NCBI RefSeq assembly: GCF_006088715.1
Contig: NZ_CP030771.1
Location: 5,404,001 to 5,468,000, forward strand
Length of the DNA stretch: 64,000 nucleotides
Origin: Streptomyces sp. YIM 121038
GTDB taxonomy: Bacteria; Actinomycetota; Actinomycetes; Streptomycetales; Streptomycetaceae
Direction of reading: 5' to 3'
The notes beneath the pieces are model-generated. The model did no database searches. It was given only the letters and a program-made list of their open reading frames with translations, and was not told the origin of the DNA. The position numbers and the translations under genes were made by a program. Positions 35,490 to 40,763 of this stretch are shown here, piece by piece (position 1 is the stretch's first letter; every line of letters starts with the position of its first letter).

Positions 35490-35795
35490 CTACCAGGAGG
35501 ACTTGCGCACGCCGGGCAGGAATCCGGCGTGCGCCTGCTCCCGCAGCCGCACCCGGGAGAGCCCGAACGCCCGCACGTACCCGCGCGGCCGCCCGTCCAC
35601 GCTGTCGCGGTTGCGGACGCGCGTGGCGCTGGCGTCGCGCGGCTGGCGCGCCAGTTCCCGCCGGGCCGCGAGCCGTTCGGCGTCCGGCGTGGACGGGCTG
35701 CGCAGCAGCTCCTTCAACTCGGCCCGCCGCGCGGCGTACCGGGCGACGACCGCGCGCCGCTCCTCGTTCTTCGCGACCTTGCTCTTCTTGGCCAT
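35490..35795 (-). CDS. rpsN: 30S ribosomal protein S14, zinc-independent paralogue
   Basis: 101 aa, [14 protein letters not shown] start. Typical S14 core ([34 protein letters not shown]). It lacks the CxxC zinc pairs of the short S14 type and is the long C-minus form. Such copies replace zinc-containing ribosomal proteins when zinc is scarce. ATG 35795 shares its A with the rpmB stop (TGATG), so translation is coupled. Confidence 0.95.
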
Positions 35796-36031
35796 CAGAC
35801 CTTCACCCCGCGCGCCCGGATCCTGGCGACGGCGGCCTCGACGCCGATCACGTCGACGGTCTTGATGCCCCTGGCGCTGAGCCGCAGGCGCACGTACCGG
35901 CTCTCGCTCGGCAGCCAGTAGCGCTTGCTCTGGACGTTCGGGTCGAAGCGGCGCGACGTGCGCCGGTGGGAGTGGGAGACGTTCTTGCCGAAGCCGGGCT
36001 TCGCGCCGGTCAGCTGGCAGTGGGCGGACAA
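35795..36031 (-). CDS. rpmB: 50S ribosomal protein L28, zinc-independent paralogue (TTG start)
   Basis: 78 aa. The family start (M)[28 protein letters not shown] is reached only if the TTG at 36031 is the initiator. GAGAGG lies 9 nt upstream of it and there is no in-frame ATG or GTG nearby at the right place. The usual four zinc cysteines are absent (one Cys). It is expected in the ribosome under zinc limitation. It is first gene of the rpmB-rpsN operon, divergent from rpmG across a putative Zur site. Confidence 0.93.
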
Positions 36032-36069
36032 GGTGACGCACCTCTCGTTCGGTCGCGGTCCCGGCCATT

Positions 36070-36090
36070 TGGAAACGGGAACCATTTTCA
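36070..36090. promoter_or_regulatory. Candidate Zur operator
   Basis: TGGAAA (36070-36075) and TTTTCA (36085-36090) form an inverted pair with a 9-bp centre; on the minus strand the core reads TGAAAATGGTTCCC, close to actinobacterial Zur boxes (TGAAAATNATTTTCA). It abuts the rpmG -10 box and sits upstream of rpmB, so one site could silence both operons when zinc is sufficient. Confidence 0.6.
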
Positions 36091-36103
36091 TATACTAGCC
36101 CTC
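36091..36103 (+). promoter_or_regulatory. -10 box for a leaderless rpmG mRNA
   Basis: TATACT (36091-36096) lies 7 nt before ATG 36104 and directly next to the Zur-like site. Confidence 0.6.
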
Positions 36104-38235: not shown

Positions 38236-38577
38236 TCGCACCGCGCCCGGCCGCGCGCCGCCGGAGCAGCCGTACCGCCGCCCGCCGCGCGCCGCCGGAA
38301 AATTCACCTGCCACCAGAAGGCCTCCGCGCGCGTCTGTTCCTCATGTACGAGGTCATCGGATTCGGCCAACCCCGCGCGGAAGGGGGCGCGGAAGATCAT
38401 GGACGGGGGCTGGCGTTCGCATGTCATGCGGGGTTCGACGTGGTGGCGAGGGAGCTGTAACCAGCTCACCACGCCGCGTGCACGTGCATCTGCCCATGCA
38501 TCGGCACATGAACACAGCTATGATCCGGGACAGTTGACGGCTACAACAACAGCCACGGCACCACCGGGGAGCGACCT
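38236..38577. other. Gene-free 342 bp with the DUF397 promoter
   Basis: I see no gene. The second half holds a 25-bp element (38477-38501) shared with the ATPase/HTH promoter region, a -10 box TATGAT (38519-38524) 17 nt after it, and a 50-nt leader to the DUF397 gene. Confidence 0.6.
38477..38501 (+). promoter_or_regulatory. 25-bp shared promoter element, copy 1
   Basis: Begins CGTGCACGTGCATCTGCCC and ends ATGCAT. It matches 24 of 25 bases of the element at 39666-39690 (minus strand). Here it is followed after 17 nt by TATGAT, so its last six bases (ATGCAT) sit where a -35 box should be. Confidence 0.7.
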
Positions 38578-38817
38578 GTGCACCACGTGTTCAACGGCAT
38601 GGCGGCCACGGATCTTCACGGGGTGGTCTGGCAGAAGAGCAGGCACAGCAACTCGCAGGGTTCCTGCGTGGAGTTCGCGAAGCTGCCGGGCGGCGACGTC
38701 GCCGTCCGCAACTCGCGCTTTCCGGACGGGCCCGCGCTCGTCTACACGCGCGCCGAGATCGAGGCCATGCTGCTCGGCATGAAGGACGGCGAGTTCGACC
38801 ATCTGCTCGGCGGCTGA
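38578..38817 (+). CDS. DUF397-domain protein
   Basis: 79 aa. The DUF397 pattern is clear: VVWQKSRHSNSQGSCVEFAKLPGGDVAVRNSRFPDGPALVYTRAEIEAMLLGMKDGEFDHL. GTG 38578 has GGGGAG 6 nt upstream. In Streptomyces such small proteins are encoded next to Scr1/WhiJ-type HTH genes and RsbW-like ATPases; several of these sets affect sporulation and antibiotic production (established for WhiJ and AbaA-type loci). All three members are present here. Confidence 0.92.
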   Translation: MHHVFNGMAATDLHGVVWQKSRHSNSQGSCVEFAKLPGGDVAVRNSRFPDGPALVYTRAEIEAMLLGMKDGEFDHLLGG

Positions 38818-39019
38818 CCACTTCGATCCGACGGGTCGACGAGGAGCGCGCAAGCGGGAGCAAGGCAAGCAGGGCCGGCAGAAACGATCGTCCGTGGGGG
38901 AAACCGCGACGGAAGGCGATCGTTCACGGGGACGCGGGGAGTGAACACCCGCGGGAAACGGGGGGCAGGGCTGTTCCGGCCGGCCGACGGGCCGCCCGGC
39001 CCACGGCGGGGCCGGGCCG

Positions 39020-39535
39020 TCAGGCGAGCTGGAACAGCGCCCACACCACCTTGCCGCTCAGCGCGCCGGCGAGCGGGTGCCAGCCCCAGCCGTCGCTGAA
39101 CGAGTCCACCAGGAAGAGCCCGCGGCCCGACTCCGACGCGAAGTCGTCGATGGCGTCACCGGCCTCGCGCGCGACCGGACCGTCGTCGCTGGGATCCCGT
39201 ACCGCGCACACCAGGCGTGAGGTCCACCGCATCATGTGCAGCCGCACCGGCGAGTCCTCGCCGACGACGCAGTGCACCTCGGCGTGCGTCCGGTCACCGG
39301 GAAGCGCGTGTCTCAGGGCGTTGGTGACGAGTTCGGAGACGACGAGCGCGATGTCGTCGAAGCGGTCGTCGAGCTCCCACGACGCGAGCGTCTTCCGGGT
39401 GAACTGGCGTGCGCTGCCCACGGCTTCGTAGCGGGCGGGGAGGGCGCAGGAGGCGGCGCTGGAGACCGCGGAGGGGTCGAGCGGAGGAAGGCCCTGCCGT
39501 AATGGCTCGAGCATGGTTGATCCATTCGTCCCCAT
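39020..39535 (-). CDS. RsbW-like ATP-binding protein (HATPase_c_2)
   Basis: 171 aa. A GHKL fold is visible: the N-box VVSELVTNALRHA, AVRDPSDDGP as degenerate G1 box, and ESGRGLFLVDSFSDGWGWHPLAGALSGKVVWALF as the G2/G3 region. It would act as an anti-sigma or signalling kinase. ATG 39535 was chosen because GGGGAG lies 8 nt upstream; ATG 39514 is the alternative. It is divergent from the HTH gene and convergent with the DUF397 gene. Confidence 0.9.
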   Translation of the reverse strand: MGTNGSTMLEPLRQGLPPLDPSAVSSAASCALPARYEAVGSARQFTRKTLASWELDDRFDDIALVVSELVTNALRHALPGDRTHAEVHCVVGEDSPVRLHMMRWTSRLVCAVRDPSDDGPVAREAGDAIDDFASESGRGLFLVDSFSDGWGWHPLAGALSGKVVWALFQLA

Positions 39536-39851
39536 GCGAGGCACTCCCCGGTTTTCGCGGCTCGCGGTACAAAGCGATCGAACGGTGGCGCGGTCGGTAC
39601 AGCTGGTCGGTGGAGCAGCGGCACAGAAGTGGCGCGCCGACCATGGTTCCGAATGCGTACAGCAGATGCAAGGGCAGATGCACGTGCACGCGCCGGACTT
39701 GACCGCTCCTAGGTCGCTTCTTGCCTATTTCTTCCTACGGTTTCTTGCGGAGACCTGCCTTACGCTTTCCCTTTCCGTAACCGAACGAGTACCGCCCGAA
39801 GCGTTTAATGGCAGACTGCGAGTCTCAACACCTTGGGGAGGACTGAGCGAA
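39536..39851. promoter_or_regulatory. ATPase-HTH divergent promoter region
   Basis: 316 bp without a gene. It holds the second copy of the 25-bp element (39666-39690) and, to its right, a stretch of clearly lower GC (39713-39790) with TTACG / CGTAA arms around 39759-39781. GGGGAGGA lies 9 nt before the HTH start. Confidence 0.6.
39666..39690 (-). promoter_or_regulatory. 25-bp shared promoter element, copy 2
   Basis: The minus strand reads CGTGCACGTGCATCTGCCC and ends TTGCAT, one mismatch from the copy at 38477. After 17 nt on this strand comes AACCAT, a weak -10 box, which would start the ATPase transcript about 100 nt before its ATG. Confidence 0.7.
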
Positions 39852-40763
39852 GTGACCGCTGGGGAGTCGAGCGGCTCGGTGGTACGGCGCATCCTGCTGG
39901 GCTCGCAACTGAGGCGCCTGAGGGAGGCACGCGGCATCACCCGCGAAGCGGCCGGTTACTCGATCCGCGCGTCCGAATCGAAGATCAGCCGCATGGAGTT
40001 GGGCAGGGTGAGCTTCAAGTCCAGGGACGTGGAAGACCTCCTCACGCTCTACGGCGTCATCGACGAGGCCGAGCGCTCCGCGCTCCTCTCGCTCGCCAAG
40101 GAGGCCAACCTGACCGGCTGGTGGCACAGTTACTCCGACGTCCTGCCGGGCTGGTTCCAGACATATATCGGCCTGGAGGGCGCCGCGTCCCTCATCCGCG
40201 TCTACGAAGTCCAGTTCATCAACGGTCTGTTGCAGACGGAGGCGTACGCCCACGCCGTCGTCGAGCGCGGCATGAAGGTCGCCGCGGGCAAGGCCGCAGG
40301 CCCGGGACGCACCGGGCGCCCGGCCAAGGTGAGCCAGGCCGACGTCGACCGCAGGGTGGCCCTGCGTCTTGAGCGGCAGAAGCTCCTCGTGTCCGAGCGC
40401 GCACCGCAGTTCAAGTGCGTCCTCGACGAGGCCGCGCTGCGGCGGCCGTACGGCGACCGGGAAGTGATGCGCGGTCAGATCCAGCACCTGATCGACATCT
40501 CCGAGCGGCCGAACGTGACGCTGCAGGTCATGCCCTTCACCTTCGGCGGCCACGCGGGCGAGAGCGGCGCGTTCACGATGTTGAGCTTCCCGGAGTCCGA
40601 TCTCTCGGACGTCGTCTATCTGGAGCAGCTGACCGGCGCCCTCTATCTGGACAAGCGGGAGGAAGTGGCCCAGTACGAGCGGGCGATGGCCGAGCTCCAG
40701 GAGGACTGTCCGAATCCGGCCGACAGCCGCGACCTTCTCCGTGGTCTACTCCAACTGACCTGA
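39852..40763 (+). CDS. XRE/Scr1-family helix-turn-helix regulator (WhiJ-like)
   Basis: 303 aa. The N-terminal HTH_31 is LGSQLRRLREARGITREAAGYSIRASESKISRMELGRVSFKSRDVEDLLTLYGV. The C-terminal DUF5753/Scr1-type domain includes the conserved IRVYEVQFINGLLQTEAYA and NVTLQVMPFTFGGHAG, with VVYLEQLTGALYLDKREEV. GTG 39852 has GGGGAGGA 9 nt upstream. These regulators act with DUF397 partners, which are proposed to relieve repression. It probably controls its own locus through the divergent region. Confidence 0.92.
   Translation: MTAGESSGSVVRRILLGSQLRRLREARGITREAAGYSIRASESKISRMELGRVSFKSRDVEDLLTLYGVIDEAERSALLSLAKEANLTGWWHSYSDVLPGWFQTYIGLEGAASLIRVYEVQFINGLLQTEAYAHAVVERGMKVAAGKAAGPGRTGRPAKVSQADVDRRVALRLERQKLLVSERAPQFKCVLDEAALRRPYGDREVMRGQIQHLIDISERPNVTLQVMPFTFGGHAGESGAFTMLSFPESDLSDVVYLEQLTGALYLDKREEVAQYERAMAELQEDCPNPADSRDLLRGLLQLT

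Follow-up and report, generated by a model that had tools for sequence, protein, structure and literature searches.

A pair of conserved repeat arrays as the probable operator of a WhiJ-type regulator at a DUF397/ATPase locus of Streptomyces

Most Streptomyces encode numerous WhiJ, BldB-like and AbaA-like proteins, which influence development as well as antibiotic production, and as far as we could find a mapped DNA target has been published for only one WhiJ, WhiJ9 of S. venezuelae. According to the accessible passages of that study, WhiJ9 binds three direct repeats (consensus CGXXCTCAAC) at iosA-whiJ9, and iosA activation depends on it; the authors further speculate that other WhiJ proteins control neighbouring abaA genes and that BldB is connected to these loci through hetero-oligomers of BldB proteins (Avramova et al. 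2023, PMC10294661). Pairs of XRE and DUF397 proteins have been proposed, in the accessible parts of two further papers, to be type II toxin-antitoxin systems in which a toxic DUF397 protein is neutralised by its XRE partner (PMC6262351, PMC10364602). Here we analyse a 25-bp element that occurs, 24/25 identical, in the promoters of a DUF397 gene and of an ATPase gene beside a WhiJ-type regulator gene, in a 64,000-nucleotide stretch of Streptomyces sp. YIM 121038 (contig NZ_CP030771.1; hereafter the window). We propose, with a probability of roughly 0.78, that the adjacent WhiJ-type helix-turn-helix (HTH) protein uses both elements as its private operator, which would serve both promoters.

As a preliminary description of this DNA had stated, each copy is oriented toward its downstream gene, with 17 nt between its end and a -10-like box, TATGAT or AACCAT; the consensus of both copies is CGTGCACGTGCATCTGCCC[A/T]TGCAT. 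The 25-bp extent given there holds for the core, which belongs to a longer array of 12-bp units with a 6-bp sub-period, reading TGCACGTGCATC / TGCCC[A/T]TGCATC / TGC... (Table 1), whose best repeat unit is the palindromic 10-mer TGCACGTGCA. Identity at lags 6/12/18 is 0.55/0.57/0.53 for the DUF397 copies and 0.49/0.50/0.46 for the ATPase copies, as against 0.11-0.30 in both sets at the remaining lags between 4 and 19. The last hexamers, ATGCAT and TTGCAT, stand in the right position, where the description had placed the -35 box, but they match TTGACA at only 2/6 and 3/6 positions, and their conservation is better explained by the repeat than by -35 function. With TATGAT and AACCAT taken as the -10 boxes, the three units would span about -52 to -17 and end 4 bp before the -10; with transcription starts predicted from these boxes, the 23-bp core is centred near -41 at promoters whose -35 is poor.

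The element is private to this cluster. At up to 3 mismatches the window contains two matches only, dinucleotide shuffles with any match number 0/100, and the 11.1-Mb genome holds the same two copies and no others, both before genes of the DUF397/HTH/ATPase cluster, so that the genome search suggested by the description brings up no unrelated sites. The genome carries 21 WhiJ-like matches, and the element stands at one of them. A looser pattern returned 12 matches genome-wide versus 24 for the reversed control, and what lies beyond the two sites and their reverse readings amounts to eight places with 3 mismatches each; a larger regulon was rejected because the search yielded fewer matches than its control.

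Conservation within Streptomyces is complete at the level of genomes: 392/392 match at up to 3 mismatches, the reversed pattern matches in none, and the per-strand maximum is one 25-mer match in every genome. By hand count, about 336 of the 392 are matched once on each strand and about 56 have a single match; among the pairs listed, copies are mostly 1.0-1.3 kb apart, with exceptions at 2.3 and 3.9 kb and one pair on two contigs. We fetched 60 Streptomyces loci from among the places listed, each with at least one match, ten of them chosen as single-match genomes, giving 61 with the window, and scored an element when it ran in the same direction within 400 bp upstream of a gene with at most 6 mismatches in a 23-mer. 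By this measure it precedes 61/61 ATPase genes and 60/60 detected DUF397 genes; in the remaining locus (L078), from a single-match genome, no DUF397 gene was detected in 5.7 kb, and the ATPase copy stands there with no second element. The ATPase copies show 0-1 mismatch in 58/61 loci, the other three having a 1-nt insertion that gives a count of 6, and the DUF397 copies show 0-3 mismatches in 56/60. Mean conservation over the 23 core positions is 0.99 for the ATPase copies and 0.93 for the DUF397 copies, compared with 0.65 and 0.68 in the upstream flanks, and the positions conserved at 95% or more number 23/23 (61 loci) and 16/23 (60 loci, seven below), respectively.

From the start of the palindromic unit to TATGAT the distance is 40 nt in 48 of the 60 loci, 52 nt in five, 64 nt in one and 76 nt in two, with 41 nt and 53 nt in two loci each; these steps of 12 bp imply gain or loss of whole units, with the -10-proximal part of the array left in place. 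In front of the ATPase gene, the -10 variants AACCAT, AACGAT and AAGCAT lie at the same distance in 57 loci and 1 nt further in three, and locus L084 has AAACAT.

Beyond the genus, the element stays with the same WhiJ clade despite changed gene orders. In a set of 81 genomes of the family, 51 match the 23-mer at up to 3 mismatches, among them 36/66 outside the genus. The search listed 76 places, 47 of them outside the genus; 31 fetched regions cover 36 of these 47, the places left out being in genomes G401, G403, G409, G415, G418 (two), G419, G426, G433 and G448 and the second in G420. A 32nd region (L248) comes from the genus, its second place, on contig C58, having been left out. WhiJ-type and DUF397 homologues are present in 32/32 regions and the ATPase in 31/32, L230 ending at a contig edge. 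Four regions (L223, L230, L241, L243) represent a second, diverged cluster in which DUF397 and whiJ are same-strand neighbours and a single element stands beside DUF397, and in the three where the ATPase is present DUF397 is divergent from it; six others, from two other genera (L228, L229, L232, L234, L235, L247), carry an extra element copy facing whiJ. Family genomes that lack a match nevertheless have a close WhiJ relative in 29/30 cases, and 28 of 30 WhiJ loci taken from such genomes keep TGCACGTG[C/A]A cores, with weaker forms only in L279 and none in L280. The suggestion that the DUF397 and ATPase genes form one regulon is supported by the two copies in the genome, the limit of one per strand across the 392 Streptomyces genomes and the presence of WhiJ and DUF397 in every fetched region. 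Two regions also have unusual whiJ genes: in L246 a single cluster contains a tandem pair with 67% and 65% identity to the protein encoded in the window, and in L247 the whiJ match falls in three pieces, as if frame-broken, with elements and other genes intact, in a genome rated 76% complete.

Across the class, where up to 14 candidates per genome were scored, a WhiJ match at E <= 1e-80 occurs in 40/158 genomes. The ATPase-type element (at most 1 mismatch) is found in 19/40 genomes with a close WhiJ relative versus 0/118 without one (Fisher p = 8e-14, not corrected for kinship), and with the genus removed in 7/28 versus 0/118 (p = 5e-6, likewise uncorrected); all seven of these matches are no more than 500 bp from the WhiJ match. 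Outside the genus 28 genomes have a WhiJ match; 18 of their loci were read, and 14 of these contain the exact TGCACGTGCA core.

A second line of evidence comes from the regulator itself. The stretch IRASESKISRMELG, the predicted recognition helix going by known XRE folds, is conserved at each of its 14 positions in at least 58/60 Streptomyces loci, at least 54/60 loci of other genera in the family (a group that includes L248) and 6/6 loci of family f17, and it varies in family f18 at two positions (A6/G2 and M5/L3); L279, L280, L296, L303, L304 and L309 were omitted from this comparison. In 30 orthologues (L320-L349) of the paralogue at L179, the best fit to the NCBIfam Sco1979 model, the corresponding stretch is LRVAPATVRRMEMA, and the upstream regions of this type share, in place of the window element, a conserved block close to ACTTGGCAAG...CACTCTGAAAANTGCAGAGTG, a candidate inverted-repeat operator of another WhiJ. 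A third group of 13 loci (L180 type) has the helix IGVSHSTIRRMEAA and yet another, less conserved upstream block. Because helix and conserved block change together, these comparisons point to WhiJ as the binder, with private operators for each paralogue; together with the co-occurrence of element and WhiJ, they favour the earlier suggestion that the adjacent HTH protein exerts the control. At two paralogue loci of the window's own genome (L188, L190), inverted repeats CTCGTAC...GTACGAG stand upstream of whiJ. A search for direct repeats upstream of the window's WhiJ gene and 17 paralogues (18 genes in all) found no paralogue above shuffles at lag 12, a weak test in which the window's own array reached only the 95% level; in it, 19-bp repeats at L180 and L181 exceeded shuffles.

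Taken as a mechanism, WhiJ would bind the array of 12-bp direct repeats in the DUF397 and ATPase promoters, where the array occupies the place of the -35 box, and would thereby couple the two genes into one small regulon. It may act like a class II activator that substitutes for the -35 box. The DUF397 product, itself under operator control, would close a negative feedback loop by binding and inactivating WhiJ, in line with a proposal made for SCO4542/WhiJ. The output of the circuit would be the anti-sigma-like ATPase, whose production would be gated a second time by a TTA codon that depends on the bldA tRNA. Activator promoters of the Pho-box type, in which direct repeats about one helical turn apart replace the -35, have a comparable layout; they use an OmpR-type regulator and an 11-bp period, and the analogy is one of layout, not of relationship.

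Table 1. Features of the locus in window coordinates
Feature	Position	Strand	Basis or remark
DUF397 (BldB-like) gene, 79 aa	38578..38817	+	PF04149, 66 bits (cut-off 24)
AbaA-like HATPase_c (anti-sigma-like) gene, 174 aa	39020..39544	-	PF13581, 47 bits (cut-off 27)
In-frame TTA codon within the ATPase gene	39500-39502	-	sequence
WhiJ-type regulator gene, 303 aa; proposed binder of both arrays	39852..40763	+	PF13560 and PF19054
Operator array (putative), DUF397 promoter	38477..38514 (end approximate)	+	25-bp core CGTGCACGTGCATCTGCCCATGCAT at 38477-38501; sequence and 60-locus conservation
12-bp units of the DUF397 array	38479-38490, 38491-38502, weaker third 38503-38514	+	sequence
TATGAT, proposed DUF397 -10 box	38519..38524	+	present in 60/60 Streptomyces loci
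Operator array (putative), ATPase promoter	39653..39690 (lower end approximate)	-	25-bp core CGTGCACGTGCATCTGCCCTTGCAT at 39666-39690; weaker third unit to 39653
AACCAT, proposed ATPase -10 box	39643..39648	-	AACCAT/AACGAT/AAGCAT in 60/61 loci

The locus has all the parts of a whiJ/bldB/abaA cluster: an XRE HTH protein of the WhiJ type, a DUF397 neighbour and an AbaA-like HATPase_c neighbour. The DUF397 and ATPase genes are convergent and both lie between the element copies, and the WhiJ-type gene begins beyond the second copy. Its product has an N-terminal HTH_31 domain (58 bits, cut-off 27) and a DUF5753 domain (189 bits, cut-off 23), and it scores 368 bits against NCBIfam NF058600, the "Sco1979 family" (cut-off 350), a model that fits two other paralogues of the same genome better. 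The ATPase protein matches RsbW and RsbA models below cut-off only. An in-frame TTA codon is present in 56/61 ATPase loci, when up to 10 codons before the aligned start are included, and in 0/60 DUF397 and 0/61 whiJ loci; it would add bldA control to the ATPase gene. At 39777-39817, in front of whiJ, a second block distinct from the 12-bp repeat, GTAACCGAACGAGTAC ... TGGCAGACT, is conserved over the 61 loci, and the similar boxes TGGCACACT or TGACAGACT precede other whiJ paralogues, as if whiJ promoters shared one -10 type. Since whiJ has this separate promoter-like block in Streptomyces, autoregulation through the element is not evident there. From gene-number order, the TTA codon and the neighbouring genes as we assume them to be, we infer that the locus is orthologous to SCO3421, with SCO3423 and SCO3424, of S. 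coelicolor. Reading frames at about 35490-36091 (-), recognised by eye, resemble ribosomal proteins L28 and S14, in agreement with what we presume to be the neighbourhood of SCO3424.

The direction of control is the least settled part of this proposal. That WhiJ acts on both promoters by activation strikes us as close to an even bet, and we lean toward it over repression because the -35 boxes and the ATPase -10 are poor and the core is centred near -41. A repressor bound at the same operator, blocking RNA polymerase at the -35 and spacer until relieved by the DUF397 protein, would be consistent with an array over this part of the promoter and with earlier work in which WhiJ represses development until its DUF397 partner lifts the repression, as recounted in the accessible passages of PMC4255298 and PMC6262351; this we consider a real but lesser contender, the poor promoter boxes suiting an activator-dependent promoter and the tested relative WhiJ9 being needed for activation of its target (PMC10294661, from the same passages as above). 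Binding by another protein, such as a general developmental regulator, would be compatible with the data insofar as WhiJ binding is itself deduced, yet such regulators have many sites, not two per genome, the element follows WhiJ and its helix from family to family, and BldB itself is reported in the accessible text of PMC10294661 to lack DNA binding, all of which make this improbable. The fixed 17-nt spacing to the -10 in both promoters could also mark the signature of a particular sigma factor rather than an operator. Two sites per genome would be odd for a sigma factor, however, and in 10/60 DUF397 promoters the palindromic unit lies at least one 12-bp step further upstream (eight by whole steps, two by a step plus 1 nt); these steps and the extra copies facing whiJ in six regions of two other genera led us to reject such a signature, which we regard as very improbable. 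Least credible of all is a chance duplication or a functionless low-complexity repeat: the sequence is partly simple, with its 6-bp sub-period, but the shuffles, the 392 matching genomes against an empty reversed control and the excess of core over flank conservation rule out a random repeat.

Several observations weigh against a WhiJ operator, or against its activating form. Co-conservation of neighbouring parts fits any locus-specific regulator equally well. The reversed control gave one match each in 4/81 family genomes and in 2/158 genomes of the class set; the ATPase-type element is absent in 21/40 class-wide genomes with a close WhiJ relative, the exact core is missing in 4/18 class-level loci (L296, L303, L304, L309), and no gene was identified next to the core in several f18 loci. 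In genera g2 and g5 (L226, L244, L245, L249, L250), the DUF397-side copy retains its spacer and -10-like box and is directed away from DUF397, an orientation ill-suited to activation of that gene; when the five loci were aligned and inspected by eye, no reading frame behind this copy proved to be conserved. Read from the DUF397 strand, the same block resembles a -10 (GCGCTATCATC) followed by the operator, and a site that may thus lie downstream of the DUF397 -10 would suit repression. A search of genome contigs with a strict 12-bp WhiJ9 pattern, in which the period was imposed rather than taken from the WhiJ9 site, brought up 39 stretches, and tblastn found no WhiJ-like, DUF397 or ATPase match at any of them. 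WhiJ9 was mapped to a site 113 bp ahead of the iosA start, whereas the window array lies over the -35 (PMC10294661, accessible passages). Finally, sigma-E sites are reported, in the portions available of the respective papers, at SCO3424 (PMC6767563) and, under ethanol stress, at SCO3423 (PMC10771440), and the SCO3423 signal was higher in one glucose comparison (PMC4848846, likewise in part); if the SCO genes are orthologues, other inputs to the locus are likely.

Looking past this locus, we put forward a broader idea whose chances seem to us a shade under even, namely that each WhiJ cluster of long standing has an operator to itself, deeply conserved and fitted to the recognition helix of its own regulator. 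A genome with some 20 WhiJ-like genes could then operate many insulated WhiJ-DUF397-ATPase switches. The window type would be an array that replaces the -35 with a variable number of 12-bp units, and the code might be readable across actinobacterial families. At the locus itself, a sharp candidate binding site and a two-gene regulon are now on offer for a very widely conserved WhiJ member, and the published guess that WhiJ controls the neighbouring abaA becomes testable with a 38-bp oligonucleotide. The faithful conservation of the element pair in Streptomyces makes a long-suspected developmental control circuit directly testable.

Among described systems, that of WhiJ9 is the nearest in kind, sharing a WhiJ-family regulator, a direct-repeat site, a neighbouring bldB (DUF397) gene and control of an adjacent gene; as far as its accessible text goes, it differs in repeat sequence, in having one intergenic region rather than two promoters, and in its target, iosA rather than abaA plus DUF397 (PMC10294661). 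The cluster of SCO3421, SCO3423 and SCO3424 is alike in its BldB-like gene and its AbaA-like neighbour with a TTA codon, bldA control having been reported for SCO3423; it differs in the sigma-E sites, before SCO3424 (PMC6767563) and at SCO3423 (PMC10771440), and no operator is described in the passages available (PMC4255298). Scr1/Scr2 and the other XRE-DUF397 pairs of S. coelicolor belong to the same protein families, but in them, as presented in the accessible parts of PMC6262351 and PMC10364602, DUF397 adjoins the XRE gene, whereas the DUF397 gene of the window stands apart, converges with the ATPase gene and has a promoter of its own, which would explain why the operator appears twice; SCO3421 and SCO3424 are not in the portion of the pair tables available from these papers. 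The preliminary description knew of no account of such a shared site, and apart from the sister case of WhiJ9 we found none in the literature searched: the 10-mer TGCACGTGCA occurred together with Streptomyces in no paper found by a search that lay mostly outside subscription papers, and the five papers containing 12-mers from the element concern human or mouse cells, judging by the search listing. A WhiJ operator is therefore a kind of site already known, and what appears to be new here, as far as we searched, is its sequence, its promoter-overlapping layout, its 12-bp steps and the breadth of its conservation.
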